From the NCBI GenBank assembly GCA_029289235.1, contig JARFTZ010000056.1, positions 37,721-101,720 of the forward strand: a stretch of 64,000 bases of DNA. Reading direction: 5' to 3'. Below, piece after piece: positions 13,231 to 35,385 of this stretch (its first letter is position 1; every line of letters starts with the position of its first letter). This DNA is from Gammaproteobacteria bacterium (lineage in GTDB: Bacteria; Pseudomonadota; Gammaproteobacteria; Burkholderiales; Rhodocyclaceae). The notes under the pieces were generated by a model. The model did not search any database. It worked only from the letters and a program-made list of their open reading frames with translations, and had not been told where the DNA came from. A program made the translations under genes and the position numbers.

Positions 13231-13428
13231 TCAGGTGTCGCTATCGGAAGACGTTTTTCCCGCCATGTATCGGCGACAGGCCAGGCGCAGGAAGCCCATC
13301 TGTTTCTTGAAATTCCGGCAACCCTGGCACATCGCCAGATGCATTTCCAGTTGCAGGCGTTCCGCAAGGGTGAGCTCCCGGTCCAGCGATTCGGACAATT
13401 TGTGGGTGACGTCCTTGCAGCTCAACAT
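13231..13428 (-). CDS. Short zinc-finger (zf-HC2-like) putative anti-sigma factor
   Basis: MLSCKDVTHKLSESLDRELTLAERLQLEMHLAMCQGCRNF: H-x3-C-x2-C anti-sigma motif; overlaps the ECF sigma gene. Confidence 0.8.
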   Translation of the reverse strand: MLSCKDVTHKLSESLDRELTLAERLQLEMHLAMCQGCRNFKKQMGFLRLACRRYMAGKTSSDSDT

Positions 13429-14021
13429 GCCTGTTCTCCCCCCAGGAACCAGTTCTTTTCAAGACAGCGCCGCAGGCCGTTGCGCGCGCGATGCAGGATG
13501 ACGTTGCAGTTGCTCACCGTGATACGCAACTCACGACAGACCTCGGCCGTTTCGAACTCCAGGAATTCGCGCATCATGAAGACGCGCGCGGTGTTTTCCG
13601 GCAGGTGGTTGAGACAGGCATCGAAGACATCCCAGAACCGTTGCTGCCGCAAGGCCTCTTCCGGATCGCCCCAGTTTGTCGGGCGATCTTCCGGCCGCCA
13701 GTGGTCGTTGCCCTTGAACAGCGTTTCGAAGGACTGATCGAGGCTTTCCTCGTCGGGCGCCAGCGCGGAAATATTTGTCGTACGGCTCTGCTGGCGGATA
13801 TGGTCGACGATCTTGTTGCGGAGGATGGCGAAGACCCAGGTCTTCAGCGCCGAGCGACCGGCAAAATCCTGCCCGTTGGCCAGCGCGGCCACCAGCGCTT
13901 CCTGCACCACGTCCTCCGCCATCGCCGCGTCGCGCAGCTGCAGCCGCGCGAACTTGATCATGTCGCGCCGGATGGCTTCGACGGCCTCATCGTTCATCCA
14001 TGGAAGTTGCGGGTCGCTCAT
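13422..14021 (-). CDS. ECF-type RNA polymerase sigma-70 factor
   Basis: DVVQEALVAALANGQDFAGRSALKTWVFAILRNKIVDHIRQ sigma-2 region; sigma-4 region with HRARNGLRRCLE. Start MSDPQLPW. Confidence 0.9.
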   Translation of the reverse strand: MSDPQLPWMNDEAVEAIRRDMIKFARLQLRDAAMAEDVVQEALVAALANGQDFAGRSALKTWVFAILRNKIVDHIRQQSRTTNISALAPDEESLDQSFETLFKGNDHWRPEDRPTNWGDPEEALRQQRFWDVFDACLNHLPENTARVFMMREFLEFETAEVCRELRITVSNCNVILHRARNGLRRCLEKNWFLGGEQAC

Positions 14022-14034
14022 TTTCCCCACTCGT

Positions 14035-15147
14035 TCATTGCCCCGGAGCATGGTACTGGCTCATGAAGCGGCGGTCGATCCAGTCTTTCCAGCGCCAGAC
14101 CCAATGCCCCGTTGCCGACAGGCCGTTCCAGGACATGACGGCCTCCCTGGGGCCGGTGGCCAGCAGATAAAGCGTCCGCTTCTGCGGGCGATAGGGCAAA
14201 GGCGCCTGGCCGAGCAAAGCGCGTTCGAGGTTGGCCGCCAGCACCGGGCCGGCCCGGACCGCATAGACGCCGGACTTGGCATGCGGCGCATCGACCCGCG
14301 AGGCGAAATCGCCGCCGGCGAACACCTCGGAATGCGAAACACTATGTTGCCCATCCGCCACCGCAACGAATCCGTCAGCAGCCAGCGCCAGACCCGAACC
14401 GGCCAGCCAGGACTGTGGACGAACGCCGGTCGCGGCGATGACGGTATCGACCGCAACGGTGGTTCCATTGTCCAGCAGCAAACCTTCCGGCGATCCGGCG
14501 GCGTAACCGGGGATCTCGACGACCTGATGCTCCCGCAACGCCTGCCGCACGCGCTGCACGATGCGCGGGCCATGCCCCGGCATCAAGCCCGAGCCGGCCA
14601 CCAGCGACACCGCCACGTTCGCTCCCCCAGCTTCGCGGGCAAAACGGTAGCGCGCGGCCAGGGCCAGTTCGACTCCGGCGGCACCGCCCCCAACCACGAC
14701 CAACCTGGCGGTACCGCGTTGCCGGGCCAACTCAACCTGGCGCTTCCAGCCGACGACGAAATCCTCCAGCGGTCGGATCGGCAGCAGCGTTGCGCCGGTC
14801 GCGGCCAGGCAGGAACTGTCGACCTGCGCCCCCACATCGAGCGAGAGGAGGTCGTAGGAAAACTCCCCGGATGCAGCTGTCTGGACGCGTCGCCGCGCGG
14901 CATCGAGCCCGGTTACCGAATCCTGCACCAGATGAACGCCGGCTGCCCGCGCCAACGGCTCCAGCGGTGCAGCGCACTGATCCAGCGCATAATGCCCGGC
15001 CATCCAGCCCGGCACCATGCCGGAGTAGATCTGGCGCAGATACGGCGTCACCAACGACACCGCGACGCCCGGCCAGCGCCTCGCCGCCAGCGCCTTGAGT
15101 ACATGCAGGTGGGCGTGCCCGCCGCCGGCGAGGATCAGGCGCTTCAT
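14035..15147 (-). CDS. FAD/NAD(P)-dependent oxidoreductase of the SelD-N-terminal-associated type
   Basis: LILAGGGHAHLHVLKALAARRWPGVAVSLVTPYLRQIYSGMVPGWMAGHY, matching the pyridine nucleotide-disulfide oxidoreductase family often fused N-terminal to SelD; here standalone. Confidence 0.8.
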   Translation of the reverse strand: MKRLILAGGGHAHLHVLKALAARRWPGVAVSLVTPYLRQIYSGMVPGWMAGHYALDQCAAPLEPLARAAGVHLVQDSVTGLDAARRRVQTAASGEFSYDLLSLDVGAQVDSSCLAATGATLLPIRPLEDFVVGWKRQVELARQRGTARLVVVGGGAAGVELALAARYRFAREAGGANVAVSLVAGSGLMPGHGPRIVQRVRQALREHQVVEIPGYAAGSPEGLLLDNGTTVAVDTVIAATGVRPQSWLAGSGLALAADGFVAVADGQHSVSHSEVFAGGDFASRVDAPHAKSGVYAVRAGPVLAANLERALLGQAPLPYRPQKRTLYLLATGPREAVMSWNGLSATGHWVWRWKDWIDRRFMSQYHAPGQ

Positions 15148-15809
15148 GCGCCACCGCTATCCGGCAGAACCGCCGCCACGTCCGGAAACAAGCCAAGGAG
15201 GCGCTCGACGTCCTCGAATCGATCGACATCCCACAACGGGGCCAACTCGCGCCAAGTCAGTCCGGCCGCCTGCAGTTGCCGCCGCGTCTGCGCCATGACC
15301 CGGTCGGTACTCCAATCGACATCCCGGAATACCGCAAGCGCCGGTTTCTTCAGCCCGATCAGCACATACCCGCCATCCTCCGCGGGGATCACCACCGCGT
15401 CGTGCTCACGCAAAGCCGCCGCGGCCTCTCGCAGCACCTCGGGCGTCAGCGCCGGGCAATCGGTACCAATAACCAGCGTGCCGATGACCAGCGCCCCGGC
15501 GGCAGACGCCTCGTCCACCGCCGCATGCATGCGCCCGCCCAGATCGACATCCGGCTGCCGGCATCGGCGCACCGGCCCGAGCCCCTGGCACGCCGCAAAA
15601 TCCGGATGATCGGTCTCCGGCGCGCACCACAGCGTCACCGGCCCGAGCTCGGCGGCGAGGGCCGTTCCCAGCGTGCGCCGCAGCAACCAGCGTTGCAGCG
15701 CTGCGGCGCCCTCGGCGCCCAGATGCGGGATCAGCCGCGTCTTGGCCAGGCCCGGGACGGGTGCCTTGGCCAGGATCGCGACCGCGCACTCAGTCGTTAC
15801 GCGGGACAT
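15144..15809 (-). CDS. TIGR04282/DUF2064-type transferase (rSAM/selenodomain-associated, arsenosugar biosynthesis glycosyltransferase-like)
   Basis: AVAILAKAPVPGLAKTRLIPHLGAEGAA, LVIGTDCPALTPEVLREAAAAL, VVIPAEDGGYVLIGL. Confidence 0.85.
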   Translation of the reverse strand: MSRVTTECAVAILAKAPVPGLAKTRLIPHLGAEGAAALQRWLLRRTLGTALAAELGPVTLWCAPETDHPDFAACQGLGPVRRCRQPDVDLGGRMHAAVDEASAAGALVIGTLVIGTDCPALTPEVLREAAAALREHDAVVIPAEDGGYVLIGLKKPALAVFRDVDWSTDRVMAQTRRQLQAAGLTWRELAPLWDVDRFEDVERLLGLFPDVAAVLPDSGGA

Positions 15810-16479
15810 AGCCGTACTCCCGGGCAAGCGTCTGCGGACTGACACCGAGCCAGAAACGCAGGCGCAGCCACCACATCGTCAGGATCGTGCGCCACACCCC
15901 GTGCTTCTCCCAGCGCCGCCCCGAGGTCGTGACCTTTTCGGCGAGACAGGCCGGACGCGCGATCCGGCACATCGCCGAGGAAAAGGCGATGTCCTCCATC
16001 AGCGGAATATCCGGAAAGCCGCCGACGCGCGCGAACGCCTCGCGCGTGATGAAGATCGCCTGATCGCCGGTGGCGATGCCGGTCAGGCGCGAACGCATGT
16101 TCATCAGCGCGGCCACTACCGGCAGCATGATGGAGGCGCCTTCGATGCGCACGTCGAAGCGCCCCCAGTGCGCGCCACCTTCCATCACCTCCTCGATCCG
16201 TTTGATCGCCGAGTCCGGCAGAACGGTGTCGGCATGCAGGAACAGCAGCACCTCGCCGGTCGCCTGTTCCGCCCCGGCGTTCATCTGCCTGCCGCGACCG
16301 CGCGGCGCAGTGATGACACGATCAGCGAACGGCAACGACCGCCCGGCGCTATCGTCGGCGCTGCCGCCATCGACGACAATCGCCTCCACGCCTCCCGCCC
16401 GCAGACCCTGCAAGGCAGCGAGCCGCGACACGAGGGTCTCGGCCTCGTTGAGCACGGGAATAATGATCGAGAGACGCAT
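15790..16479 (-). CDS. TIGR04283-type family 2 glycosyltransferase (rSAM/selenodomain-associated, arsenosugar biosynthesis-like)
   Basis: SIIIPVLNEAETLVSRLAALQ, VDGGSADDSA, GRGRQMNAGAEQATGEVLLFLHADTVLP. Confidence 0.87.
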   Translation of the reverse strand: MRLSIIIPVLNEAETLVSRLAALQGLRAGGVEAIVVDGGSADDSAGRSLPFADRVITAPRGRGRQMNAGAEQATGEVLLFLHADTVLPDSAIKRIEEVMEGGAHWGRFDVRIEGASIMLPVVAALMNMRSRLTGIATGDQAIFITREAFARVGGFPDIPLMEDIAFSSAMCRIARPACLAEKVTTSGRRWEKHGVWRTILTMWWLRLRFWLGVSPQTLAREYGYVPRND

Positions 16480-16488
16480 CGTATCGCC

Positions 16489-17217
16489 CTAGCCCCCGCT
16501 CGGTGCCGGACACTCGCCCGCCGTGGCGACGAAACGGAAATCGGCGAAGCCGGCGTGCGCCTCCTCGCCGGTGTTGTCGGTATCGCTGGCAATCGCCAGC
16601 CCGCGCAACTGTCCGCCCATATCGCCGAACGCCAGCCGATAATCCTCCAGCACATTGCGCCGTTCCGTCACCCACCCCCCGGCCAGATCGCCGCCCGAGC
16701 GCAGCACCAGCATCCGGGCGCGATCGGTATAGGCATTCGCCTGCACGGTGCCGACGGGATGACGGTTATCCCAGATGTAATTGAGGGCGGCGTCCGGCAC
16801 CTGGTTGCCGTAAATCGAACGCGCCAGCGCCAGTCCGGCGCGGGTAAGCACGCCCAGTTGGCCCGGCGGTACATTGAAGGTGAGATAGACGCGCGCGGCG
16901 TAGTCGTCGCCCGATTTTTGCGCCATGTCCGCCGAGGCCACCGGCGCATCGATCCGCCATTGCCAGCAGAGGAACGGCGTCTTCTGCAGGTCGATTTCAA
17001 GCGGGCGGCCAAACAGCGCCATGCTCTTGTTGGCTTGCGCCTCGACCGCCGCGACGCCGTCCCAGACACGCAGACCATAGCGCGTCGGCGGCACGCGCTC
17101 ATCAAGCCGTTCGACCCTCCAGGGCGGAGGCGGGAAATCCCCGGCTGACGGGAAACGACCGACCCAACCACCATCGGCAAGCGCCGGCGCCGCTGCCAAA
17201 ACACAAAAGACACCCAA
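16489..17217 (-). CDS. DUF3047-like secreted protein
   Basis: Translation WRVERLDERVPPTRYGLRVWDGVAAVEAQANKSMALFGRPLEIDLQ...LCWQWRIDAPV. TTG start at 17217 with upstream AAGGAGGGGAGG and a signal peptide; ORF-track N-terminus to 17406 runs through a repeat and is likely spurious. Confidence 0.72.
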   Translation of the reverse strand: MGVFCVLAAAPALADGGWVGRFPSAGDFPPPPWRVERLDERVPPTRYGLRVWDGVAAVEAQANKSMALFGRPLEIDLQKTPFLCWQWRIDAPVASADMAQKSGDDYAARVYLTFNVPPGQLGVLTRAGLALARSIYGNQVPDAALNYIWDNRHPVGTVQANAYTDRARMLVLRSGGDLAGGWVTERRNVLEDYRLAFGDMGGQLRGLAIASDTDNTGEEAHAGFADFRFVATAGECPAPSGG

Positions 17218-17264
17218 CGCCCACCTCCCCTCCTTATCAGAAAGGCGCCGATTTCGTGCACGTT

Positions 17265-17333
17265 CGTCATTCCGGCGAAAGCCGGAATCCAGGAAATTCA
17301 ACGCACTGGACCCCGGCCTTCGCCGGGGTGACG
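17265..17333. repeat. Composite inverted repeat (two hairpins, 28-nt imperfectly inverted units CGTCATTCCGGCGAAAGCCGGAATCCAG / CTGGACCCCGGCCTTCGCCGGGGTGACG)
   Basis: Read directly; each unit is internally palindromic and the two units are inverted relative to each other. Confidence 0.85.
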
Positions 17334-17369
17334 AATACTTCAGCGTTTCCTTGAAAGAAAACACGTGAA

Positions 17370-19514
17370 TCACCCCCGCCGCCAGGCATGAAAACGTTCG
17401 ACCCACGCCAGCAGCTTCTCCGGTGCGTGCGCCTTCTTCCAGACGCCGGCGACGTACTTGTTGGCCTCGGCCAGCGTCGGGTAGATGTGGATGGTGCCGA
17501 GGATTTTGTTCAGGCCGATCCCCTGCTTCATGGCCAGCACGTACTCGGCGATCAGGTCGCCGGCGTGTTCGCCGACGATCGTCACGCCGAGAATGCGATC
17601 CTTGCCCGGCTCCGTCAGCACCTTGATGAAACCGTGGGCTTCGCCGTCGGCGATGGCGCGGTCGAGGTCGTCAATGCCGTAAGTGGTCACTTCGCAGGGA
17701 ATGCCATTTTCCCGGGCTTCGAGTTCGTTGAGCCCGACGCGCGCGACTTCCGGTTCGACGAAGGTCGCCCAGGGGATCACCGCGTAGTCCGCTTTGAACT
17801 TCCTGAACGGATCGAACAGCGCGTTGACCGCCGCGTACCACGCCTGGTGCGCGGCCGTGTGGGTGAACTGGAACGGCCCGGCCACGTCGCCTGCCGCATA
17901 AATGTTGGGGAAGCGGGTCTGCAGGAATTCGTTGGTCTCCACCGTACGCCCGGTCGGGATGTCCAGTTTTTCCAGCCCGTAGCCTTTCAGGTTGGCCGCA
18001 CGGCCGACGGCGACCAGCACGGCGTCGAAGGGAATGCGCACCTCCTGTCCGGCGTGCTCGGCGACGAGAATCTTCTCGCCGTTCTCCACCAGAAACGCCT
18101 TGGCCTGATGCCCGGTCAGCACGGCAACGCCCTCGGCACGGAAGCGCTGCGCCACGAGTTCGGAAACCTCCGGGTCTTCGCGCATCAGCAGGCGCGGCGC
18201 CATTTCCACCTGCGTCACCTGTGCGCCGAGGCGGGCAAAGGCTTGCGTCAATTCGGATCCGATCGGCCCGCCGCCGAGAACCACCAGCCGGCGCGGTAAT
18301 TCGCGCAGGTTCCAGACCGTGTCCGAGGTCAGATAGCCGACCTCGTCGATGCCAGGAATCGGCGGCACGAACGGCCGCGCGCCGGCGGCGATGACGATGC
18401 TGCGCGTGGTCAGCGTTCTCTGGGTGCCGCCCTCGCCCGTAACCTCCACTTCCCACGGCGAGACGATGCGGGCCGTTCCCTGCACGACATCGACGCCCAG
18501 CGACGTGTAGCGCTCCGCCGAATCGTGCGGCTCGACGCTGCGGATCACCGCCTGCACACGCTCCATCACCGTGGCGAAGTCGAACTCCGCCTTCGCCGAG
18601 GCAATGCCGAACTCCCTGGAACGCGCCATGTGCGAGAGCAGCTTGGCCGAACGGATCAGCGCCTTGGACGGCACGCAACCGGTATTGAGGCAGTCGCCGC
18701 CCAGCCTGTGCTTTTCCACCAACGTCACTTTCGCCTTGACGGCAGCGGCAATATAGGCGGTAACCAGCCCGGCACTGCCGGCACCGATGACCACCAGGTT
18801 GCGGTCGAAGCGCGCCGGCTTTTTCCAGCCGGCATAGACCCGGTTGGCGCGCACCGCATCAATGATCTTGCGCGCCAGCAGCGGGAATACGCCGAGCAAC
18901 GCGAAGGAGCCGAGCAGCGCGGGCGACAGGATACCCGCCAGCGAATCGAGCTGCGCCAGTTGGGTGCCGGCATTCACATACACCACGGTGCCGGCGAGCA
19001 TGCCGATCTGGCTGGTCCAGTAGAAGGTCGCCACCCTCATCGCCGTCAGCCCGAACAGCAGGTTGATGACGAAAAACGGGAACACCGGCACCAGGCGCAG
19101 GGTAAACAGGTAGAACGCGCCCTCGCGCCGCACGCCCGCGTCGATGGCCTGCAGGCGCGGACCGAAGCGCCCGGCCACCCAGTCGCGCAGCAGGAAACGG
19201 GCGATCAGGAAGGCCAGCGTGGCGCCGACGGTCGAGGCGAAGGACACGATCACCGTCCCCCACAGCAGGCCGAACACCGCGCCCCCCGCCAGCGTGAGCA
19301 GCGCGGCGCCGGGCAACGACAGCGCCGTGACCAGCACGTAGAGCAAAAAGTAGACAGCTACGGCCAGTACCGGCTGGCCGACGCGGAAAGTCTCGATCGC
19401 CGACTGCTGCGCCTTGAGCGTCTGCAGATTGAAATACTGGCCGAGATCGAAGGCAAAGAAACCTGCAACCGCGAGGATCAGCGCAACGAGCAACAACAGC
19501 TTCTTGAGACGCAT
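17370..19514 (-). CDS. Fusion protein: TVP38/TMEM64-like membrane domain plus mercuric-reductase-like FAD disulfide oxidoreductase
   Basis: N-terminal TM protein (LPGAALLTLAGGAVFGLLWGTVIVSFASTVGATLAFLIARFLLRDWV) followed by VVIGAGSAGLVTAYIAAAVKAKVTLVEKHRLGGDCLNTGCVPSKALIRSAK. ATG at 19514 preferred over 19766. Confidence 0.88.
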   Translation of the reverse strand: MRLKKLLLLVALILAVAGFFAFDLGQYFNLQTLKAQQSAIETFRVGQPVLAVAVYFLLYVLVTALSLPGAALLTLAGGAVFGLLWGTVIVSFASTVGATLAFLIARFLLRDWVAGRFGPRLQAIDAGVRREGAFYLFTLRLVPVFPFFVINLLFGLTAMRVATFYWTSQIGMLAGTVVYVNAGTQLAQLDSLAGILSPALLGSFALLGVFPLLARKIIDAVRANRVYAGWKKPARFDRNLVVIGAGSAGLVTAYIAAAVKAKVTLVEKHRLGGDCLNTGCVPSKALIRSAKLLSHMARSREFGIASAKAEFDFATVMERVQAVIRSVEPHDSAERYTSLGVDVVQGTARIVSPWEVEVTGEGGTQRTLTTRSIVIAAGARPFVPPIPGIDEVGYLTSDTVWNLRELPRRLVVLGGGPIGSELTQAFARLGAQVTQVEMAPRLLMREDPEVSELVAQRFRAEGVAVLTGHQAKAFLVENGEKILVAEHAGQEVRIPFDAVLVAVGRAANLKGYGLEKLDIPTGRTVETNEFLQTRFPNIYAAGDVAGPFQFTHTAAHQAWYAAVNALFDPFRKFKADYAVIPWATFVEPEVARVGLNELEARENGIPCEVTTYGIDDLDRAIADGEAHGFIKVLTEPGKDRILGVTIVGEHAGDLIAEYVLAMKQGIGLNKILGTIHIYPTLAEANKYVAGVWKKAHAPEKLLAWVERFHAWRRG

Positions 19515-19528
19515 GAGATCCTTCCCTC

Positions 19529-19738
19529 CTAAACCACTCGGGCGCATTTGCCCGACAGGCATTGCCCCAGCCAGTGATCGAGCGACACCACACCGCCGCC
19601 CCGCGCGATCAGGAACAATAGTACCGTCATCCACACGCCATGCGCCGGGTACGCATCGGGATAGACAACGATCTGGATCACCAGCGTCATGATCAACAAG
19701 GCGAGGGCGAGCAAAGCAGAGGTCATCGTCTTGTTCAT
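19529..19738 (-). CDS. Small predicted membrane protein
   Basis: MNKTMTSALLALALLIMTLVIQIVVYPDAYPAHGVWMTVLLFLIARGGG; two hydrophobic helices, directly upstream of the TVP38 fusion. Confidence 0.55.
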   Translation of the reverse strand: MNKTMTSALLALALLIMTLVIQIVVYPDAYPAHGVWMTVLLFLIARGGGVVSLDHWLGQCLSGKCARVV

Positions 19739-20119
19739 GGTCAGTCTCCTTGGTTGCATTGGTCATCGGGCGGGAGCCCGAACCGCCAGCCGGAATGCCG
19801 GACTGTTAATCGTTAGTCGGAGCTAGCGGCGATTTCTTACAAGGAGCTTTCGTCGTCCTCAGAAACGAGGATGGATTGGCTCACGCTGAATGCTGCCAAA
19901 ATTGGACAAAAGCAATTACAATGGCGCGCCCATCTCGCGATCGCGAGATTCGCTGCGGCTCAGCGCAAGTACTTGATAGAAATACAATACTCTTGGTTTT
20001 TAGTGCCGGTCTGGTATCGAATTCAAGCGCTTGTGATCAAAGGATGATTGTTTCAGAAGTCTAAAACGCCTAGGACTATCAGGTCGTCCGAGGACAACGC
20101 ATTCAATTCGAAGAATCTC

Positions 20120-20713
20120 ATGCGCAAGCTGGACCATCAATCTCGTAAATCCATCTGCCACCGGTTCCGGTCATACATCGCCAGGTCAGTCCCTCAACGG
20201 GAAGATCTGGCCTGTTCACGCTGGTTGCGGCCGATCGCCCACCTGGTCGTTAAAGACGATCTATGGCGTTTCAAACGCGATACCGTTGCCCGCGGCGTGG
20301 CTATCGGCCTGTTCTGGGCATTCCTGCTCCCGGTCGCCCAGATCCCGTTCAGCGTGATGCAGTGTGTCTTTCAACGCGGAATGATCACGGCGTCGATCAT
20401 CGCGACATTTATTACCAACCCCCTCAACTTCCCGTTCTGGTGGTGGCTCGCCTACAAGGTTGGCAATGCCTTGATGGGAGGTGGATTGGCATATGCGCCA
20501 CCATCCGCGAGTGTGGACTGGCTCGATTGGGCGCTGAGCATCGGGAAACCGACCTTCCTCGGGATGGTCATTTTTGCGCTGGCGTTTTCCACGATCGGCT
20601 ATTTCTCCGTCAAGCTGGTCTGGAATTTCCGGGTACTGCACAAGCGCCGGACCCGCCGATTGCAGTACCGTTTGATTGTGGAGGCAGGCAGCGCCTCTGC
20701 GACAAGCTCCTGA
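20120..20713 (+). CDS. DUF2062 domain membrane protein
   Basis: RFKRDTVARGVAIGLFWAFLLPVAQIPFSVMQCVFQRGMITASIIATFITNPLNFPFWWWLAYKVG. Confidence 0.8.
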   Translation: MRKLDHQSRKSICHRFRSYIARSVPQREDLACSRWLRPIAHLVVKDDLWRFKRDTVARGVAIGLFWAFLLPVAQIPFSVMQCVFQRGMITASIIATFITNPLNFPFWWWLAYKVGNALMGGGLAYAPPSASVDWLDWALSIGKPTFLGMVIFALAFSTIGYFSVKLVWNFRVLHKRRTRRLQYRLIVEAGSASATSS

Positions 20714-20756: not shown

Positions 20757-21752
20757 TCACAAGGCAGTCGAATTGGCGAACGAGACGCCCGCCGCATAAC
20801 ATTCCGGATACTCACTGGACGCCATCGCCGCCGTCCTGACGGAGTAATCCGGCCCATCCATGATCCGCCGGTAATACGACTGCCACGCATCCGATTCCGG
20901 CGGCCAGTTGGCGAGGAAACGCGCTTCCCATGCCGCATGGTCATAGGCGACCGGCAGCGCATGAACCTGCGCCCCGGCGAAAACGCTGCCATAGAGCGCC
21001 GCATGGACCGGCGGCGCGATGCCGATGCGGGTAAGCACGCCGTGGCGCGAGCCGTGAAAGTTCGGTAGACCGGAGGCGCCATTATTGATGACCCTGCCGT
21101 TTGCAAAGCGCCGCAGCGCCGGCAAACAGGTGTGGCTGCTGGCGAACACGTCGACCTGAGCGTCGTGAAACGCCTCCTTCAGCCAGATGCCGTTCTCTGA
21201 CGCGTCCAACGCCTTGGCGTCGAAACGCCAGCCGGCGAGCGAGTCGGCATCGCCATGCACCACGCCAACACGGCAGCCGCCGACGCGAAAGCGCGCGACC
21301 ATGGGCAAGGCACTCAAACGCTGAAGAACGTCCGGGAAACGCGCTGCCGTCACCTTCAGCCGCGCATGGATGCGGTTCGAGCGCTCGACGAAGGCATCGC
21401 CAACGTCCTCCGGATACGCACAGCCGCACCCGGCACTCTCTTCCCCTGAAAACAATTCAGCTTCGACATTACCGAGCGTCGCCGAATGGCGCAGCACCCG
21501 TTCGTTGATTTCGGAAAATCCGGCCGGATCGACATTGAACCAGTTGAAATCGCCGTTGAAGCACAGCGTCACCGGGCCGTCCTCGGCCGCCGCCAGCGCC
21601 TCGATGGCGTCCAGCGCCGGCAGGTTGCCGTACAGTCCCCCGATCACGTAGAGCGTACGGGCCTCTTGTATCGGGGCCTGGCCAATCGCCGCGGCGCCGT
21701 AGCGATAGCGCAGCGGACAGGCTCGACCGGCGCGGCCTGATGTCTCGCTCAC
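20757..21752 (-). CDS. Calcineurin-like metallophosphoesterase
   Basis: YVIGGLYGNLPALDAI, CFNGDFNWF, VVHGDADSLAGW, VINNGASGLPNF: metallophosphatase-type blocks. Confidence 0.75.
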   Translation of the reverse strand: MSETSGRAGRACPLRYRYGAAAIGQAPIQEARTLYVIGGLYGNLPALDAIEALAAAEDGPVTLCFNGDFNWFNVDPAGFSEINERVLRHSATLGNVEAELFSGEESAGCGCAYPEDVGDAFVERSNRIHARLKVTAARFPDVLQRLSALPMVARFRVGGCRVGVVHGDADSLAGWRFDAKALDASENGIWLKEAFHDAQVDVFASSHTCLPALRRFANGRVINNGASGLPNFHGSRHGVLTRIGIAPPVHAALYGSVFAGAQVHALPVAYDHAAWEARFLANWPPESDAWQSYYRRIMDGPDYSVRTAAMASSEYPECYAAGVSFANSTAL

Positions 21753-22564
21753 GGCTTGCTCCCGATTGCGGCGAGCACTTTCGAAGCCGATGGAACTTCC
21801 CAGAACGCCTTTTGTGGAGAGTCTTCCGGGCGATACAGCCGCATCAGCGTCGTGTCGTCGACTTCGCCGACCGGCAGGTCGAAGGCGATCCGCCCCTGCT
21901 TCAGGCCGATCACGCGTTCGGCGAGCAGCGGCAACAGCGAGGGGTTATGCACCACGGTAATCAATGTCTTCCCGGCGGCGGCCTGGACGAGCAGCCGGCA
22001 GACTTCCGCCGCCGCCGACGGATCGAGCGCGGCCGTCGGTTCGTCGGCCAGGATCAGGGACGGCGCCTGCACGAGCAGGCGGGCAATCGCCGCCTTCTGG
22101 CGCTCTCCTCCCGACAACCGGTCGGCCCGCGTGCCGGCCAGCGCCAGCAGGCCGACGGACTGCAGCGCCGCCTCCGCCCGAACGATCTCGCCGGCGGGGA
22201 AGCAACGCGTCCAGCCACGCCAGCCGGGAACACGTCCGAGCGCGCCGATCAGCACGTTCTCCAGCACCGACAGCCGGCCCACCAGATGCAGCCCCTGCAA
22301 CACCTGCCCGACCTCCCGGCGCAAGGCGCGCAATGTTTCGGCCGGTACCGGGTGGACCAGTTGGCGGCCGAGCACCTGCACCTGTCCGTGCTTTGGCGCC
22401 ATGAAGCCGGTCAGCAGGCGCAGAAGCGTCGATTTGCCGGCCCCGTTGTGCCCGACAACGGCCACGCGCTCGCCCTGTGCAAGGTTCAATTGCGGAATTT
22501 CCAGCACGGCCCGGCCACCCGCCATGCAGACGACGCCATCGAGGACGATGCTCGGGATCGTCAT
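21749..22564 (-). CDS. PhnC-like ABC transporter ATP-binding protein
   Basis: Walker A GHNGAGKST, DRLSGGERQKAAIARLL, LILADEPTAALDP; next to PhnE/PhnD-like genes. Confidence 0.9.
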   Translation of the reverse strand: MTIPSIVLDGVVCMAGGRAVLEIPQLNLAQGERVAVVGHNGAGKSTLLRLLTGFMAPKHGQVQVLGRQLVHPVPAETLRALRREVGQVLQGLHLVGRLSVLENVLIGALGRVPGWRGWTRCFPAGEIVRAEAALQSVGLLALAGTRADRLSGGERQKAAIARLLVQAPSLILADEPTAALDPSAAAEVCRLLVQAAAGKTLITVVHNPSLLPLLAERVIGLKQGRIAFDLPVGEVDDTTLMRLYRPEDSPQKAFWEVPSASKVLAAIGSKP

Positions 22565-23442
22565 AGCAGCGCCTCACGGATGCGCCGGCTGAGCGCGTCG
22601 AAGGCGGAGACCAGGGCAACGATGACAATCAGCACCGTCGCCAGCCGGCCCCACTGGAACAGCGCGACCGATTCGGTAATCAGCAGGCCCAGCCCGCCCG
22701 CGCCGATGAGGCCGAGGATGGTCGAATCGCGGATGTTGAATTCCCAGACGTAGAGGTGGCTCGACACGAACTGCGGCAGGACCGACGGCCAGATGGCGTT
22801 GAAGAACACCTGCACCGGCCCGGCGCCGACGCTGCGCACGGCATCGACGGCGGCCATGTCCAGCGTTTCGATCGCTTCCGCAAAGAGCTTGCCGTAGGTC
22901 CCCGAGGAATGCAGGGCGATGGCCAGGATGCCGGCCGTCGAACCGAGGCCGACGATGCCGACCAGCACCAGGCCGAACACCAGTGTATGGATCGAGCGCG
23001 TCACGTCGAGAATCCCCTTGGCCAGCCAGGCCAGCGGCTTCGGCGCGGCCAGGTTGCGCGCCGTCAGTACGGCCAGCGGCAAGGCCAGCAAGGCGCCGAG
23101 CAGGGAGCCAAGGGTGGCGATGCGCACGGTCGTCCACGTGGCGCGGCCGAGGCCGGCCAGGTAATCGGCCTCGGCCTGCCGGCGGTTCTCGATGCGAAGC
23201 ACGCGACCATCGTCGCTGCGGTATTCGAGCTGCGTTTCGCCGAACCACACGTCGAGAAAGCTCGGCCGGGCGAATTCGCCCGCCGTCTTGACCAGATTGG
23301 CCCACGGATTGCGCCCCAGCGACAACTCGTCTTCCTGCGCCAGCGAGCCGAGACAGACCGCCACCAGCAGCGCGTAGGCCAGCGTCAGCCCGAGGAAGCC
23401 CAGCCGTCCGGAAACGCCGGGGAGGCGGCGTGCGGCCATCAC
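22561..23442 (-). CDS. PhnE-like ABC transporter permease
   Basis: WTTVRIATLGSLLGALLALPLAVLTARNLA, RSIHTLVFGLVLVGIVGLGSTAGILAIALHSSGTYGKLFAEAIETLD motif. Confidence 0.9.
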   Translation of the reverse strand: MMAARRLPGVSGRLGFLGLTLAYALLVAVCLGSLAQEDELSLGRNPWANLVKTAGEFARPSFLDVWFGETQLEYRSDDGRVLRIENRRQAEADYLAGLGRATWTTVRIATLGSLLGALLALPLAVLTARNLAAPKPLAWLAKGILDVTRSIHTLVFGLVLVGIVGLGSTAGILAIALHSSGTYGKLFAEAIETLDMAAVDAVRSVGAGPVQVFFNAIWPSVLPQFVSSHLYVWEFNIRDSTILGLIGAGGLGLLITESVALFQWGRLATVLIVIVALVSAFDALSRRIREALL

Positions 23443-24311
23443 TGCACCGAGAGTTTTCCGGTCGCCAGGCCGGCGTCGCGGATCGGCTTATAGAACGCGT
23501 TGTCGCTGCTGACGAAGCCGGTGTAGTGCGGCGGCAGCAGTTTGGGCTGGGTCTTCAGCACGTTCCCCACGTCGCCCAGCGCCCCCTGCAGCTTCGCGAC
23601 CAGCGCCGTGTCGGCGGCAAGCGCCTTGCTCACGGCGAATGCGTCGTTCGGCAACGGCTCGGACTGCCAGATGATCTTCGAGCGTTCAGCCTTGATCAGC
23701 CCCTGTTCGATCATCGCGTTGCGGTTGCGGTTGTAATCAGCGCCGGCATCGAGCACGCCTTGCGTCACCTGGGTCTGAATCGCCTGATGCGAGGTGTGCA
23801 CCACCCTCGCGAAATACGTTTCCGGCGTAATGCCCTGGGTCATCAGGTAGTGCAGCGGAATCAGGTAACCCGAGGTGGAGCCCTTGTCGCCGAAGGCGAA
23901 GGTCCGCCCCTTCAGATCCGCTGGCAAACGGATGCCCGAATCGGGGTGAGTCACCATGATCGCGAAATACTCCGGCTTGCCGTCGTAGAGGATGGTGGAG
24001 ATGACCTGCGCGCCGGACTGGTGGTTGGCCAGCACGTAGCCCCATGGCCCGAGCAGGGCGATGTCCGTCTCGCCGTTGGCCAGCGACTTGGCGAGTCCCT
24101 CCCAGCTATCGACGGTGCGCAACTGCACCGGCCGGTTCAGCCGGGCGGTGAGGTAATCGGCCAGCGGGCGGTAGGTCGCATCGTTCTTGTCCTTGTCCGG
24201 TTGGAAGAGGCCAACGCCGAACTTGAGTGGCGGCTCGGATGCAAACGCGGAAGAGAAGAAAAGCGAACTGGCCAGTGCGGTCAGGAATCGAAAAAAACCG
24301 TGCATTTGCAT
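23439..24311 (-). CDS. PhnD-like phosphonate-type ABC transporter substrate-binding protein
   Basis: Signal peptide then LKFGVGLFQPDKDKNDATYRPLADYLTARLNRPVQLRTVDSWEGLAKSLANGETDIALLGPWGYVLA. Start ATG at 24311 or 24305. Confidence 0.87.
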   Translation of the reverse strand: MQMHGFFRFLTALASSLFFSSAFASEPPLKFGVGLFQPDKDKNDATYRPLADYLTARLNRPVQLRTVDSWEGLAKSLANGETDIALLGPWGYVLANHQSGAQVISTILYDGKPEYFAIMVTHPDSGIRLPADLKGRTFAFGDKGSTSGYLIPLHYLMTQGITPETYFARVVHTSHQAIQTQVTQGVLDAGADYNRNRNAMIEQGLIKAERSKIIWQSEPLPNDAFAVSKALAADTALVAKLQGALGDVGNVLKTQPKLLPPHYTGFVSSDNAFYKPIRDAGLATGKLSVQ

Positions 24312-24318
24312 TCTCCTT

Positions 24319-25314
24319 TCACGAAGCCGCAGCCGGTTCCGATGCTTTTTCCGACCCCAGCGCCCCGCCACAACTGCTGCCCTGCCCTGCGGTGCAGCCG
24401 TAACAATGATCGGCCACGCGGATCGGCCGGCCCGCGAAATCCGTCTCCAGCAACTCGGAAAGATGCACCGGCCGCGCTTCCGCTCCGCCCGGATGCAAGC
24501 CGAGCATCTGGTTGAAATCGCAGTCGAACACATAGCCCTGCCAGCTGACGGAAATCAGGCTGCGGCACATCACGCCATCCAGGTTCTCGGCGCGATAAGC
24601 CCCCTTGAGCAGCGCCATGTACGGGTGGAACTCGTTGCGCGAGATGAGCTGGCTGCCGAAGCGCTGGATGGGCATGTTGGTCAGCGCGAAAAGGTGGTTG
24701 AAGACGATGCCGTAGCGCGTCGCCAGCTGTTCCTTGTAGGACTGCTCCAGCCGCACCTGGTCGGGCGGCAGGGATGGCCCGAGCGGGTTGTAGACGAGGT
24801 TGAGCACCCGCCCGCTGTCCGGCAGGCCATAGCCCAGGTCGTTGAGCTGGCGCAACCCATCGAGGCTGGACTGGAAAACGCCGTCGCCGCGCTGCTTGTT
24901 GAAGTTCTCTTCCAGATAGCAGGGCAGCGAGGCGGTGATCTCGACCGCGTTGTCGGCGAGGAACACCGCCAGCGTCTCGTAGCCCGGTTCGTTGAGGATG
25001 GTCAGGTTGCAGCGGTCGATCACGCGCAGCCCCATCGCCCGGGCTTCGCCGACCAGCCAGCGGAAATGCGGGTTCATCTCCGGCGCGCCACCGGTCAGAT
25101 CAAGCGTCTGGATCGCTTGCCGACGCGCGAAGTCCAGCAATACCTCCATGGTTTCCCGACTCATTTCTTCGGTGCGCTTCGGACTGGCCGCCACGTGGCA
25201 ATGAAAGCACGACTGGTTGCAGCGATAGCCGAGATTGGCCTGCAGGGTTTCCAGTTTGCCGCGCCGGATCGGCGGGAAGTCGGTCTTGACCAACAGCGGG
25301 AACGTGTCGCGCAT
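24319..25314 (-). CDS. arsS: Radical SAM protein of the ArsS (arsenosugar biosynthesis radical SAM/(seleno)Cys domain) family, Cys form
   Basis: LGYRCNQSCFHCHVAASPKRTEEM (CxxxCxxC), LDLTGGAPEMNPHFRWLV, YLEENFNKQRGDGVFQSSLDGLRQLNDLGYG, C-terminal CYGCTAGQGSSCGGAL. Confidence 0.9.
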   Translation of the reverse strand: MRDTFPLLVKTDFPPIRRGKLETLQANLGYRCNQSCFHCHVAASPKRTEEMSRETMEVLLDFARRQAIQTLDLTGGAPEMNPHFRWLVGEARAMGLRVIDRCNLTILNEPGYETLAVFLADNAVEITASLPCYLEENFNKQRGDGVFQSSLDGLRQLNDLGYGLPDSGRVLNLVYNPLGPSLPPDQVRLEQSYKEQLATRYGIVFNHLFALTNMPIQRFGSQLISRNEFHPYMALLKGAYRAENLDGVMCRSLISVSWQGYVFDCDFNQMLGLHPGGAEARPVHLSELLETDFAGRPIRVADHCYGCTAGQGSSCGGALGSEKASEPAAAS

Positions 25315-25478
25315 GCCTCTTCTCCTGAAAGGTTTTACCCATTAGACGCACAAGCAGGCGAATTCTTACAGGAACCGCGCAAATATTTCGCGAATGCAAG
25401 GCGACACCCCCGGATATTTGCTATTTTCCGGGGGGCCGTCCGGCTCGGCCGGGCAATCATCTCGACAGACACGCAACA

Positions 25479-26087
25479 ATGACAACAATGAACGGCGAAC
25501 TCTTTTCCTCGGTCTTCCTGCTGCTCCTCGTGCTCGACCCGCTCGGCAACATGCCTTTCGTGCTCTCGCTGCTGCGCAACACGCCGGAAGCGCGCCGGCC
25601 GCGCATCATCCTGCGCGAATGCGCGATCGCCACGCTGGTGCTGGTCGGGTTCCTGTTCGTCGGCGACTGGCTGCTTTACGCCATGCGCCTGAGCGACCCG
25701 GCACTGGAAATCGCCGGCGGCGTGATCCTCCTGCTGATCGCCTTGCGCATGGCCTTCCCGCCGCCCAAGCACACGGCGGCCGAGCACGAAACCGCCACCG
25801 AACCGCTGATCGTGCCGCTGGCCATCCCGATGATTGCCGGCCCCTCGGCGCTGGCGACCGTGCTGCTCGCCTCGCGCCATTCCAACGGCGAGACGCTGCT
25901 GTGGGTCGGCGCCGTCGTCCTTGCCTGCCTGATCAACGCCGCGCTGCTGCTTGCCTCCGGCTGGTTTTCCCGCCTCTTCGGCAAGGCCGGCATGGAAGCG
26001 CTGGAACGCCTGATGGGCCTGATCCTGACCGCGATCGCCGTGCAGATGCTGATCACCGGCATCCGCATCGCCTTCAAGATCGGCTGA
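25479..26087 (+). CDS. MarC family membrane protein
   Basis: LLLVLDPLGNMPFVLSLLRNTPEARRPRIILRECAIA, PLAIPMIAGPSALATVLL. Confidence 0.9.
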   Translation: MTTMNGELFSSVFLLLLVLDPLGNMPFVLSLLRNTPEARRPRIILRECAIATLVLVGFLFVGDWLLYAMRLSDPALEIAGGVILLLIALRMAFPPPKHTAAEHETATEPLIVPLAIPMIAGPSALATVLLASRHSNGETLLWVGAVVLACLINAALLLASGWFSRLFGKAGMEALERLMGLILTAIAVQMLITGIRIAFKIG

Positions 26088-27365: not shown

Positions 27366-29705
27366 ATGACCCAGGAAACCAACAACCTCGCCGCCTACAT
27401 CTGGTCGCTCGCTGATCTGCTGCGCGGCGACTTCCGGCAAAGCCAGTACGGCCGCATCATCCTGCCCTTTACCCTGCTGCGCCGTCTCGAATGCGTGCTC
27501 GCCGCCAGCAAGGACGCCGTCCTCAAGCAGGTTCCGGTGGTCGAAGCGATGAAGCTGCCGGAAGAAGCGCAGGAAAAACTGTTGCTGCGCGCCACCGGCG
27601 GACTCTCGTTCTTCAACACCTCGCCGATGGACCTCGCCAGTCTGGGCGAAGCCGGCATCAAGGCCAACCTCGAACGTTACATCCAGTGTTTCTCCAGGGA
27701 TGCGCGCGAGATTTTCGATCACTTCAAGTTCGCCGAATTCATCGGCCTGCTCAACGACGCCAACCTCCTCTACAAGGTCGTGCAGAAGGTCAAGGCCACC
27801 GACCTCAGCCTCAAGGCCGTTTCCAACTACGAGATGGGCCTGGTCTTCGAGGAGCTGATCCGGCGCTTTGCCGAAAGCTCGAATGACACCGCCGGCGAGC
27901 ACTTCACCCCGCGCGACATCGTCCGCCTCACCACCTCATTGGTGTTCATGGAAGACGACGAGGCGCTGACCCAGCCCGGCATCATCCGCACCATCTACGA
28001 CCCCACCGCCGGCACGGGCGGTTTCCTCTCCGCCGGCATGGAATACGTACACGAACTCAACCCGCAGACCGTGATCCGCGCCTTCGGCCAGGAGCTCAAC
28101 CCGGAGAGCTACGCCATCTGCAAGGCCGACATGCTGATCAAGGGCCAGGACGTCAGCCAGATCAAGCTCGGCAACACCCTCTCCAACGATCACCTCTACG
28201 CCAGCAAGTTCGACTACATGCTCTCCAACCCGCCCTTCGGCGTGGACTGGAAGAAGATCGAAGGCGCCATCGTCGACGAGCACACGCTCAAGGGCTACGA
28301 CGGCCGCTTCGGCCCCGGCCTGCCGCGTGTTTCCGACGGCTCGCTGCTCTTCCTGCTGCACCTGCTCAGCAAATTGCGCGACCCGAAGGACGGCCAGGGC
28401 GGGGATAGCGGCTCGCGCATCGGCATCATCCTCAACGGCTCGCCACTGTTTACCGGCGGCGCCGGTTCCGGTGAATCGGAAATCCGCCGCCACATCCTGG
28501 AAGCCGACCTGCTCGAAGCCATCGTCGCGTTGCCCACCGACATGTTCTACAACACCGGCATCGCCACCTACGTCTGGGTGCTGACCAACAAGAAAACCGC
28601 CGAGCGCAAGGGCAAGGTACAGCTCATCAACGGCGTCAACCTCTGCGGCAAGATGCGCAAGTCGCTCGGCAGCAAGCGCAACGTGATGGATGAGGCCGAC
28701 ATCGCCACCATCACCCGCTGCTTCGGCAACTTCGAAGTCGTCGACGCGCGCGAACTCGACAAGCCCGCCGAGCAGAAGAGCAACCGCGGCCGGCAAGCAA
28801 CATCCGCAAAAACCGAAGCCCCCAAGACCTTCGCCAGCAAGATTTTCCGGACGCACGAATTCGGCTACCGCCGCATCACCGTCGAACGCCCGCTGCGCCT
28901 CTCCTGGCAGTTCAGCGACGAACGCATCGCCCCGCTGCGCTTCCCGACCGGCGCGCTCAACGCCGCCGCGCAGTGGATCTACGCCGAATATGGTTGCGAC
29001 CACTGGAACGATGAAGCCGACGGCGAAAACTACGGCCGGCTCGCCGAGCACGCCGAAGCGATCCGCGCCCACTGCAAGCGCCACTTCGCCGAACTCAAGG
29101 AAAAGCAGATCAAGGACCTGCTCGACGCCGAAACCTGGCTCAGCCAGCAGCGCCTCCTGCACAAGGCCCGGCAACTGCAACAGGCGATCGGCACGGCGCA
29201 GTGCGACGACTTCAACACCTGGGACGACGCGCTCAAGGCCGCCTGCCAGGAAGCCGGCATCAGCCTCGACACCAGGGAGAAAAAGCAGCTCGCCGATGCC
29301 GTCAGCTGGAAGAACCCGGCCGCCGAGAAAGTCATCAAGAAACTGCACAAGGGCAAACCGGCGCGGCTCTACGGCCTGTTCCCCGTCGGCCAGAACATCG
29401 TCGAATACCAGGCCGACGGCGACCTGCGCGACTTCGAGAACATCGCCCTCGACCCGAGCCGCCCGGTGGACGACGTCATCGAAGCCTATTTCCTCAAGGA
29501 AGTGCAGCCGCACGTGCCGGACGCCTGGATCGACGCCGGCAAGCGCGATGCCAGGGACGGCGAAATCGGCATCGTCGGCTACGAAATCCCCTTCAACCGC
29601 CACTTCTACCAATACCAGCCGCCGCGCCCGCTGGAAGAGATCGACGCCGACCTCGACGCGGTGAGCAAGGAGATCATGGACCTGTTGCGCGAGGTGCATT
29701 CATGA
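27366..29705 (+). CDS. hsdM: Type I restriction-modification system DNA methyltransferase subunit (long form, 779 aa)
   Basis: [44 protein letters not shown], plus C-terminal extension. Confidence 0.95.
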
Positions 29706-30708
29706 GTAATCTCATCCGCCCCGATCATGACTTCATGGCCGTCGTTCAGCTCATCGAGTCGGCCAGGCAGCGCGCCAGCCGTGCCGTTAACACCGAGTTG
29801 ATTGATCTGTACTGGGCCGTCGGCGAATACGTCAGCCAGAAACTTTCCACGGATGCTTGGGGCAAAGGCACGGTGGAAGCGCTGGCCGACTACATCCAGC
29901 AACAACAGCCCGGTTTGCGCGGATTTTCGGCCAAGAACATCTGGCGCATGCGGCAGTTTTACGAGGCTTATCGCGAAACGCCAATTCTCTCAACGCTGTT
30001 GAGAGAATTGCCCTGGTCGGCTCACCTGCATGTTCTGACCCGCTCCAAGTACCCGGAAGAGAGGGAGTTCTACTTGCGCACCGCCACTGAACAGCGCTGG
30101 TCCGTGCGAGAAGTCGCCCGACAGATGGACAACCAGCTCTTCGCGCGGACGATCACTGAGCCCGTCAAGATGGCCAAGGCGCTGCGAGAGGCGCAACCGC
30201 AAGTGGGCAACCATTTCAAGGACAGCTACTACCTGGAGTTCCTCGGTTTGCCACAGGAACACGCGGAAGCCGACCTGCATCGAGCCCTGATGCAGCATCT
30301 GCGGCGTTTCCTGACCGAGTTGGGGCGAGACTTCTGCTTTGTCGGTTCCGAGTTTCCGCTGCAGGTGGGCGGGCAGGATTTCGCCCTCGACCTGCTCTTC
30401 TTCCATCGCGGACTCAACTGCCTGGTCGCCATCGAGTTGAAGGTCGACCGCTTTGAACCGGAACACCTTGGCAAGCTCAATTTCTACCTCGAAGCCCTCG
30501 ACCGCGACCACAAGAAGCCCCACGAAAACCCGACCATCGGCCTGCTGCTCTGCGCCAGCAAGGACGACGAAGTGGTCGAATACGCCCTCAGCCGCAGCCT
30601 GTCGCCGGCCCTGGTCGCGCAATACCAGACCCAGCTGCCGGACAAGAAACTGCTGCAGGCGAAGCTGCACGAGTTCTATCTGGCCAATCTGGGCGCAGGG
30701 GAAGTGGA

Positions 30709-30712
<4 letters not shown>
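29702..30712 (+). CDS. YhcG/DUF1016 family PDDEXK-type nuclease protein
   Basis: [45 protein letters not shown]-terminal [23 protein letters not shown] nuclease motif. Confidence 0.9.
29982..30010. repeat. Perfect inverted repeat inside the yhcG-like CDS (13-bp arms, 3-nt loop)
   Basis: CAATTCTCTCAAC gct GTTGAGAGAATTG. Confidence 0.9.
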
Positions 30713-31992
<1,280 letters not shown>

Positions 31993-32028
31993 TCTTCCTT
32001 CCACCCGCCCACCGACCCAAACCCAGCC

Positions 32029-35000
32029 ATGACCGACCAAGCCAGCGAACGCATCTTCCAGGACGACATCCTCCGGCAATTGCAGGCGCACGGCTGGCTG
32101 CTCGGTACCCAGAAGGGGTACAACCAAGCACTTGCTCTTTACTCCGAGGACGTGCTGGCCTTCGTTCAGGAAACGCAGCCGGCGCAGTGGCAGCGTTTCT
32201 GCGCCAACCATCCGAAGGACAGCGCGCAGAAGTTCCTCGATCTGGTCGCCGGCCAGCTGGCCAAGGCCGATCCGAACGCGACCAACGCCGACAGTCGCCG
32301 CTTCGGCACGCTGGGCGTGTTGCGCCACGAGCTGCGCGACCGCAATGCGCGCCTGTCGCTGTGCCAGTTCAGGCCCGAGCACGAGCTGAATCCGGACACG
32401 CTGGCGCGCTATGCGAAGAATCGCCTGCGCGTGGTGCCGGAGCTGGTCTATAGCCCGTGGGCGTCGGCGGCGCAACTTGCGGAGACGGGCGCCAAGGCCA
32501 AGGCCTGGCGCATCGACCTGGTGCTCTTCGTCAATGGCCTGCCGGTGGCGACGCTGGAGCTGAAATCGGAGTTCAAGCAATCAGTCGAACGCGCCCTCCG
32601 CCAGTACAAGACGACGCGTCTGCCGGTCGATCCGCTGGCGAAGAAGGCGGAGCCGCTGCTCGCCTTCAAGCGCGGCGCGCTGGTGCATTTTGCGGTGAGC
32701 CAGTACGAGGTGCACATGGCGACGCGGCTGGACGGCGAGCACACGGTTTTCCTGCCCTTCAACAAGGGCACGGCCGACGGCGGTGCCGGCAACGATGTGC
32801 CGGCGGACGTGAACCGCTATGCCACCGATTACCTGTGGAACGAGGTGCTGCGGCCGGACAACCTGCTCGCCATCCTCGCCCGCTTCGTGCATCTGCAGAT
32901 CGAGGACAAGGAAGACTGGGAAGGCCGCAAGTACAGGAAGGAGAGCCTGATCTTCCCGCGCTATCACCAGTGGGACGTGGTCGGCAAGCTTCTCGACGCC
33001 GCCCGGTGCGAGGGGCCGGGACAGAAGTACCTGATCCAGCACAGCGCCGGTTCGGGCAAGTCGAATTCGATTGCCTGGGTGGCGCACCAGTTGTCGTCGC
33101 TCTACAAGGCCGACGGCAGCAAGCAGTTCCATTCGGTGATCGTCGTCACCGACCGCACGGTGCTCGATGCGCAGCTGCAGGACACGATCACCCAGTTCGA
33201 GCACACCGACGGCGTGGTCGGGCGCATCAACAACAAGGAAGGCGACGGCTCGAAGTCCGAGAAACTGGCAAGCGCGCTGGAGAACGCACAGCCGATCATC
33301 ATCGTCACCATCCAGACCTTTCCCTTCGTGCTCAAGGCGATTGAAGACAGCGTCAGCCTCAAGGCGCGCTGCTACGCGATCATCGCCGACGAGGCGCATT
33401 CCTCGCAGAGCGGCCTGACGGCGCGGCAGATGAAGGAAGTGCTGATGAAGGAGGCTGGCAACGGGGATGAGGACGAAGCGCCGGACAGCGAGGAGATCAT
33501 CGCGGCGACGGTCGCCGCGCGCCCGGCCTCCGGCAACCTGAGCTTTTTCGCCTTCACCGCCACGCCCAAACCGAAGACGCTGGAACTGTTCGGCCGCCGC
33601 CCCAATCCTGCCGAGGAGCCCTCGAAGAACAACAAGCCGGCGGCGTTTCACGTTTACAGCATGCGTCAGGCCATCGAGGAGGGTTTCATTCTCGATGTGC
33701 TGAAGAACTACACGAACTACAAGGTGGCCTACAAGCTGGCGCTGAAGATTCAGGAAGCCGACCAGGAAGTCGAGAGCAAACGCGCGCGGGTGCGGCTCAA
33801 CCAGTGGGTGCGCCTGCACGATCACAACATCGCGCAGAAGGTGATGGTGATCGTCGAACACTTCCGCAACAACGTGCTGGGCCTGCTCAACGGCCAGGCC
33901 AAGGCGATGGTGGTGACCAGCTCGCGCAAGGAGGCGGTGCGCTACAAGCAGTGTTTCGACAAGTACATCGCCGGCAAGGGCTATCAGAAGATCCACGCGA
34001 TGGTCGCGTTTTCCGGCGAGGTGCAGTTCGGCGAGAAAGACCCGAATGCGGCGGACCTGATCGGCCGCAAATTCACCGAGACCAGCATGAATCCCGGGCT
34101 GAAGGGCCGCGACCTGCGCAAGGCCTTCGATTCGGACGACTATCAGGTGATGATCGTCGCCAACAAGTTCCAGACCGGCTTCGACCAACCCAAGCTGTGC
34201 GCGATGTACGTGGACAAGAAGCTGGCCGGGATGGAATGCGTGCAGACGCTGTCGCGCCTCAACCGCACCTATCCGAACAAGGCCGAGACGGGTACCTTCG
34301 TGCTCGATTTCTTCAACGAGCCGGACGACATCCTTGAGGCGTTCCAGCCTTATTACCAGACGGCGGAGCTGGCCGATGTCTCCGACCCGAACCTGATCTT
34401 TACCCTGCACGACAAGCTGCGGGCGGCGGGCATCTTCACCTGGCCGGAGGTGGAACAGTTCTGCGTCGCCTTCTATGTGAAGAACAAGAGCAGCGCGGCC
34501 ATCGCCAACATCTGCAAGCCGGCGGTGCAGCGCTGGCAGCAGCGCTACAAGTCCGCCGTGGCAGCGTTCAAGCAGGCCAGGGCGATGTTCGAGCGCACGA
34601 AGAAGACCGGCGACGCGGTGCTGATCGCCAACGCCGAGAATTGCCTGAAGGAATGCAAGAAGGAAAAGGACGCGCTGGAAATCTTCAAGAAGGATCTGGG
34701 CACCTTCGTGCGCTTCTATGAATTCATGTCGCAGATTGTCGACTACGACGACACCGACCTGGAAAAGCTCAGTCTCTATGCCCGCAACCTGCGGCCGATG
34801 CTGCGCGAGGAGTTGCTCGAAGAAGACGAAATCGACCTCGGCAACGTGGTGCTCAGCCACTACCGCGTGGCGAAAATCCGCCAGCAGGACCTGAAGCTCG
34901 AGCAGAACAGCGCCGAATACCAGCTGGAGCCGGGCGAAGGCCTGGGCACAGCGAAACCCGGCGACAAGAAGGAGGATTTCCTCTCGCAGATCATCCGCCG

Positions 35001-35283: not shown

Positions 35284-35385
35284 GAAAGCAAACGCGAGAC
35301 GGCGAACGCCACAAACGATAGAATCGCGCCTTTTCGGCGGCGGGCCGGACCCGAACGATGCTGAAGGAACGAAGGGAAGTCTTCG

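Follow-up and report, generated by a model that had tools for sequence, protein, structure and literature searches.

The window, a 64,000-nucleotide stretch of DNA from a Rhodocyclaceae bacterium (contig JARFTZ010000056.1), carries five minus-strand genes in the order arsS, binding protein, permease, ATPase and metallophosphoesterase-fold protein. The first (24319..25314) encodes a radical SAM enzyme of the ArsS family that scored 448.4 bits against the equivalog model TIGR04167 (cut-off 300) and contains the CX3CX2C motif as CNQSCFHC. It is followed by an HtxB-like periplasmic binding protein (SBP; 23439..24311; PF12974, 195.6 bits), a PhnE-type permease assigned by model and alignment (22561..23442; TIGR01097, 232.5 bits, cut-off 216.7), a PhnC-like ATPase (21749..22564; TIGR02315, 198.1 bits, below the cut-off of 266.1) and the metallophosphoesterase-fold protein (MPE; 20757..21752). 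The sequence-only reading had described these genes as separated by very short gaps or 4-nt overlaps, and all five were recovered at these positions and on this strand. The gap between arsS and the SBP gene is 7 nt, and each of the remaining junctions is a 4-nt overlap (GTGA for SBP/permease, ATGA for permease/ATPase and GTGA for ATPase/MPE). The SBP gene has two nearby ATGs, the second of which (24305) is better spaced from the sequence AAAGGAG and is perhaps the true start.

A marC gene (25479-26087, PF01914) is divergent from arsS, and a convergent DUF2062 gene (20048-20713) closes the operon on the MPE side. A single predicted operon is supported by the overlaps, by this convergent gene and by a conserved promoter of the ECF type ahead of arsS, in agreement with the earlier proposal of one transcription unit. 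Scans for sigma-70 promoters and terminators gave no clear excess over shuffled sequence, and an Rfam scan of 13.0-27.5 kb of the window returned no match. A perfect inverted repeat, CCCCCGGA...TCCGGGGG (25407-25434), lies in the marC-arsS intergenic region, immediately upstream of the ECF-type promoter, and is a possible operator; among the few relatives examined, none had one ahead of arsS. Elsewhere in the window a type I restriction system (HsdM, HsdS, HsdR; 27366-35470) ends beside a tRNA-Leu gene; its hsdM and hsdS genes are separated by a gene for a DUF1016/YhcG PDDEXK nuclease.

A second cluster and a shared promoter motif

A second unit, on the strand of the arsS operon, consists of the arsenosugar-type genes at 13422-19766. 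This unit starts with a fusion of a VTT domain and an FAD oxidoreductase (17370..19766; PF09335, PF07992), whose true start is probably later and which recurs near arsS and the MPE gene in other loci. It continues with a DUF3047 protein (16489..17406; PF11249, 228 bits), glycosyltransferases of TIGR04283 and TIGR04282 (15144..16479; 276.9 and 193.4 bits, cut-offs 182 and 134), an FAD oxidoreductase of the TIGR03169 family (14035..15147; 348.7 bits, cut-off 310) and, as the last gene, an ECF-type sigma factor (13422..14051; TIGR02943, 259.8 bits, cut-off 162.2), all on the minus strand.

The two units share a promoter motif. TGTAAG-N16-CGTCTA is found on the minus strand at 25343..25370, beginning 56 nt before arsS, and a second copy at 19814..19841 (minus strand) begins 75 nt before the VTT-FAD open reading frame. 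The pattern TGTAAG-N14-18-CGWCTA matched twice in the whole window against 0.00 expected, and a looser form preceded arsS in 29 of 57 loci against about 0.1 expected, mostly 54-58 nt upstream, although these counts are descriptive as the pattern was spotted by eye in the same sequences. The motif was also found directly before the SBP gene in L138, L029, L056 and L049 and directly before an SSS symporter gene in L047, L042 and L093. We take this motif to resemble ECF promoters, and the sigma factor at 13422..14051 is a candidate reader of both copies. One motif and one sigma factor candidate would give a concrete regulon for a pathway little studied outside cyanobacteria. In the literature searched, from which subscription journals were mostly absent, arsenosugar genes were not found linked to an ECF sigma factor or to a transporter of the phosphonate type.

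Association with arsS and exchange of the transporter

Among 399 genomes of the order, the SBP hits fell into sharply separated groups, with 17 relatives at 65-100% identity (clade A) and 10 at 40-44% identity (clade B). Hits below clade B include one at 38% identity (L164) with HtxA- and PtxD-like neighbours. ArsS was encoded in 15 of 17 clade A genomes and in 10 of 10 clade B genomes as compared to 119 of 399 overall (30%), and at the genus level in 14 of 15 genera with the SBP as compared to 57 of 159 (p=2e-6). All 15 genomes with a full-length MPE carried arsS as compared to 30 of 100 relatives (p=6e-10); apart from the one at the genus level, the association tests in this work ignore kinship. 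The sequence-only reading had counted among the things that would refute it that SBP homologues rarely neighbour arsS; this is not borne out, as 6 of the 17 close relatives lie within about 10 kb of it. The MPE gene was within 10 kb of the SBP gene in 10 of 17 clade A and 6 of 10 clade B genomes, and as in clade B it is mostly divergent from the SBP gene, the pairing survives rearrangement.

The gene preceding MPE was recorded at 79 loci, taken from species genomes as the 80 best-scoring, so that the proportions are not those of an unbiased sample. It was an SSS symporter (about 465 aa) in 34 loci, an ABC ATPase in 21, arsS in 13 and another gene in 11. In 10 of the 21 loci with the ATPase directly before MPE, arsS was upstream on the same strand, and ABC importer and SSS symporter occurred together at none of the 79. 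The SSS gene, a weak match to PF00474 (26 bits, gathering 22.8), was found in 5 of 100 relatives, each time between arsS and MPE. The strongest evidence for import serving the ArsS/MPE function is that the same slot holds either of two importer types with no relation to each other. As related bacteria keep the arrangement and swap an unrelated pump into it, the pump most likely imports something that ArsS needs.

Variants of the arrangement were also observed. On a Roseomonas plasmid (Alphaproteobacteria) the order SBP-phnE-phnC-MPE follows two radical SAM genes, neither of them arsS, and a TIGR04282 gene is nearby. A Burkholderia glumae plasmid (L167:4684-15011) carries arsS and an MPE relative annotated as 'hypothetical protein' near TIGR04282/04283 genes, together with an S-methyl-5'-thioadenosine phosphorylase gene whose product could act on an adenosylated arsenical. 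At L141:10263-12043 the SBP-permease pair is followed by a metallo-beta-lactamase-fold (SoxH-related) gene that replaces ATPase and MPE. SBP-permease pairs of one family (L143, L148, L149, L151 and L176-L180) have no adjoining ATPase gene, and their ATPase must therefore be encoded elsewhere or borrowed.

These data make it very probable that the transporter belongs to an ArsS regulon. That a generic phosphonate or phosphite importer sits beside arsS by accident is in our view highly improbable. The permease scored above the cut-off of the PhnE model and such transporters are common, but co-occurrence, co-location, swapping of the slot and the shared promoter all argue against chance. In addition, the SBP scored 166.3 bits against the PhnD model (cut-off 261.1), the ATPase fell below the PhnC cut-off and no C-P lyase PhnJ was detected in the window's genome (95% complete), with the E. 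coli control detected. Model scores and genome content led us to reject a PhnD phosphonate SBP and, together with the HtxB-like pocket described below, support the original proposal that the ligand is not a generic phosphonate.

Binding pocket, arsenic gene context and the MPE fold

Among proteins of solved structure, the SBP is most closely related to the hypophosphite binding protein HtxB (PDB 5me4, E 2.3e-51). Pocket positions were assigned from the HtxB residue list of PMC6629693 and an alignment of the two proteins. HtxB residues W52, T129, S130, R178 and D206 are kept as W70, T146, S147, R195 and D223, while N128, F158, M176 and W68 are replaced by S145, H175, Y193 and L86. In clade A, W70, P89, W90, G91, S145, T146, S147, H175, Y193, R195 and D223 are invariant or nearly so, with Tyr193 replaced by Phe in two rows. 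Position 86 is Leu (once Ile) in clade A and Trp in HtxB and clade B, so that Leu86 separates clade A from all HtxB-like rows, and clade A formed a long, fully supported branch in the tree. The permease of the window has an extra segment, DVWFGETQLEYRSDDGRVLRIEN, which is also present in the remaining clade A permeases of the alignment.

This pocket could instead indicate selective phosphorus uptake (phosphite, hypophosphite or phosphate), with the importer co-produced with arsenic genes to keep up phosphorus supply when arsenate competes. Besides the kinship with HtxB, residues S145, H175 and Y193 are the substitutions by which the 'HtxB-like' group is defined, a group for which a larger pocket and phosphite binding were predicted (PMC6629693). 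This role was assigned to phn operons in arsenite-oxidase islands (PMC3834237), and placement beside arsR and arsC genes, seen in some relatives, suits a stress function. Phosphorus uptake leaves unexplained, however, the ties to arsS and MPE and the replacement by an SSS symporter. We know of no phosphorus uptake in the SSS family. The HtxA- and PtxD-like neighbours of true hypophosphite systems, as at L164, are absent here, and Leu86 again sets clade A apart. We regard phosphorus uptake under arsenic stress, the chief alternative to an arsenical, as rather unlikely.

In five genomes of one family the SBP-permease pair is divergent from arsenic genes: arsR-arsI-arsC-aquaporin (L143), arsR-arsC-aquaporin (L149), arsI-arsC-aquaporin with an MPE relative on the SBP side (L178), arsR-arsI-aquaporin (L179) and arsR-arsI-arsC (L180). 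The L143 genes were confirmed with models (ArsI, ArsR, and ArsC below cut-off) and those of L149 and L178-L180 were assigned by sequence likeness. As these loci are close kin, the placement may reflect one event; sister loci L148, L151, L176 and L177 have no divergent ars genes. These genomes carry arsS on other contigs, and most of their SBP genes have no promoter motif.

We also considered a selenium or sulfur oxyanion (selenite, sulfite) as the ligand, with this branch of ArsS or its partners serving selenium or sulfur chemistry. Both anions share the pyramidal shape of arsenite, members with selenocysteine exist in the ArsS family (TIGR04167 name; PMC13188914) and a TIGR03169 family protein is encoded in the second cluster. 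In clade B, each of two SBP genes (L157:8702-9965 and L158:2887-4443) is directly preceded by a gene of the DsrE family and has TusA-like genes in its vicinity, which may point to sulfur or selenium. Against this, the SBP scored 99.9 bits with the selenate SBP model TIGR04553 (cut-off 250), same-pocket relatives adjoin arsenic genes and arsS co-occurs with arsM. In the class 59 genomes had both arsS and arsM, 124 only arsS, 11 only arsM and 175 neither (odds ratio 7.6). A selenium or sulfur ligand thus appears improbable.

ArsM scored over the cut-off in 2 of 28 genomes with the module (or SBP) as compared to 59 of 183 arsS genomes of the class (p 0.006), a comparison of two different samples in which divergent ArsM proteins could be missed. 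Scarce ArsM would be expected if methylated arsenic is imported. The window's own genome is one of the two with ArsM, encoded elsewhere than in the arsS operon. At this locus (L186:8648-11859) ArsM has an acetyltransferase-like C-terminal part; after it come a sigma-like gene and, in convergent orientation, a gene for an ArsP_1 permease.

The MPE had no Pfam or NCBIfam match, and its family profile matched none of the sequences of solved structures. Its predicted fold (AF2, mean pLDDT 86) matched 1nnw, 3qfn and 3rqz in Foldseek (E 4e-10 to about 1e-9). In an alignment of 33 sequences Cys11, Cys108 and Cys110 (Cys-Gly-Cys) and Cys208 were invariant, as were Asp67, Asn94, His165 and His206, the D, N, H, H ligands of metal site 2. 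Site 1 ligands are replaced: D-x-H by G-x-Y, the second H of GHxH in HTC and GNH by GNV. The register of D-x-H was confirmed with the L168 homologue, which aligned to 3rqz with G-P-Y where the canonical D-V-H stands. This homologue and that of L178 (~30% identity) keep Cys-Gly-Cys and the same ligand losses and do not share Cys208. One metal site is thus retained, while the other has been lost or rebuilt. The initial label of metallophosphoesterase holds for the fold; an ordinary active enzyme is not supported, as half of the metal ligands are replaced.

Proposed import of arsenicals and comparison with known systems

We propose that an ArsS regulon includes these five genes as a single operon, in which the HtxB-like SBP, permease and ATPase would import a small oxyanion. 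The favoured ligand would be arsenite, arsenate or a methylated form of the latter, for example dimethylarsinate. The imported arsenical may enter the ArsS pathway, where an adenosyl group would be added to dimethylated arsenic, and the thiol-bearing MPE-fold protein may act alongside import, either carrying arsenic or serving as a hydrolase whose site has been rebuilt. Co-occurrence of SBP and MPE with arsS, mutual exclusion of ABC and SSS importers, the promoter motif, same-pocket relatives divergent from ars genes and scarce ArsM all point to this reading. Its direction, import, and each biochemical step are what these patterns suggest. Taken as a whole it stands in our judgement at an even chance, and that the ligand is an arsenical is similarly balanced. 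The own-genome ArsM and the mature SBP, which contains no cysteine unlike AioX with its arsenic-sensor residue Cys106 (PMC5908839), weigh against an arsenical. HtxB does not bind methylphosphonate (PMC5700983) and its Trp cap is kept in the SBP, which argues against a methyl group there. More tentatively, and less probably than not, bacteria often without ArsM could import dimethylarsinate by way of either an SSS symporter or an ABC importer of the HtxB-like kind, pass it to the Cys-Gly-Cys MPE-fold protein and convert it with ArsS under one ECF sigma factor.

If uptake dedicated to methylated arsenic is confirmed, arsenic would be sought and not only expelled. To our knowledge arsenic transport genes serve mainly export, or arsenic leaks in through phosphate and glycerol channels. 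An importer tied to ArsS by gene order, promoter and co-occurrence would suggest organoarsenic synthesis fed from outside. The analysis yields a binding protein that can be tested, a symporter that takes the place of the ABC importer, and a family with the metallophosphoesterase fold whose metal site is altered.

Several known systems resemble this operon in part. The HtxBCDE hypophosphite transporter is alike in SBP sequence, Trp cap, Thr129, Ser130, the Arg178/Asp206 salt-bridge residues and transporter layout. The window SBP differs from HtxB by N128S, F158H, M176Y and W68L at 36-40% identity, and its transporter is tied to arsS and MPE with no adjoining HtxA or PtxD genes. The 'HtxB-like' group of Bradyrhizobium and Methylopila (PMC6629693) shares Ser, His and Tyr/Phe at three variable pocket positions, whereas clade A has Leu86 in place of Trp68, forms a separate clade with full support and has an arsS context. 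The phn1 operons of arsenite-oxidase islands (PMC3834237) likewise place a PhnCDE-type transporter beside arsenic genes, a likeness drawn from gene layout, but the partner here is arsS and not aioBA, and neither an MPE-fold gene nor an SSS alternative was described for them. AioX and ArrX, arsenic-sensing binding proteins, belong to the same SBP superfamily (E about 1e-13); an AioX-like sensor was rejected as the window SBP has no cysteine and full transporter genes follow, making it part of a transporter and not of a sensor module. The Synechocystis ArsM-ArsS arsenosugar pathway shares an ArsS family member, and cyanobacterial ArsS adenosylates dimethylated arsenic according to work cited in PMC12159101; the window ArsS belongs to this family by sequence. 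In contrast to Synechocystis, arsM is encoded elsewhere in the window's genome, and the arsS operon also contains the importer genes and an MPE-fold gene.
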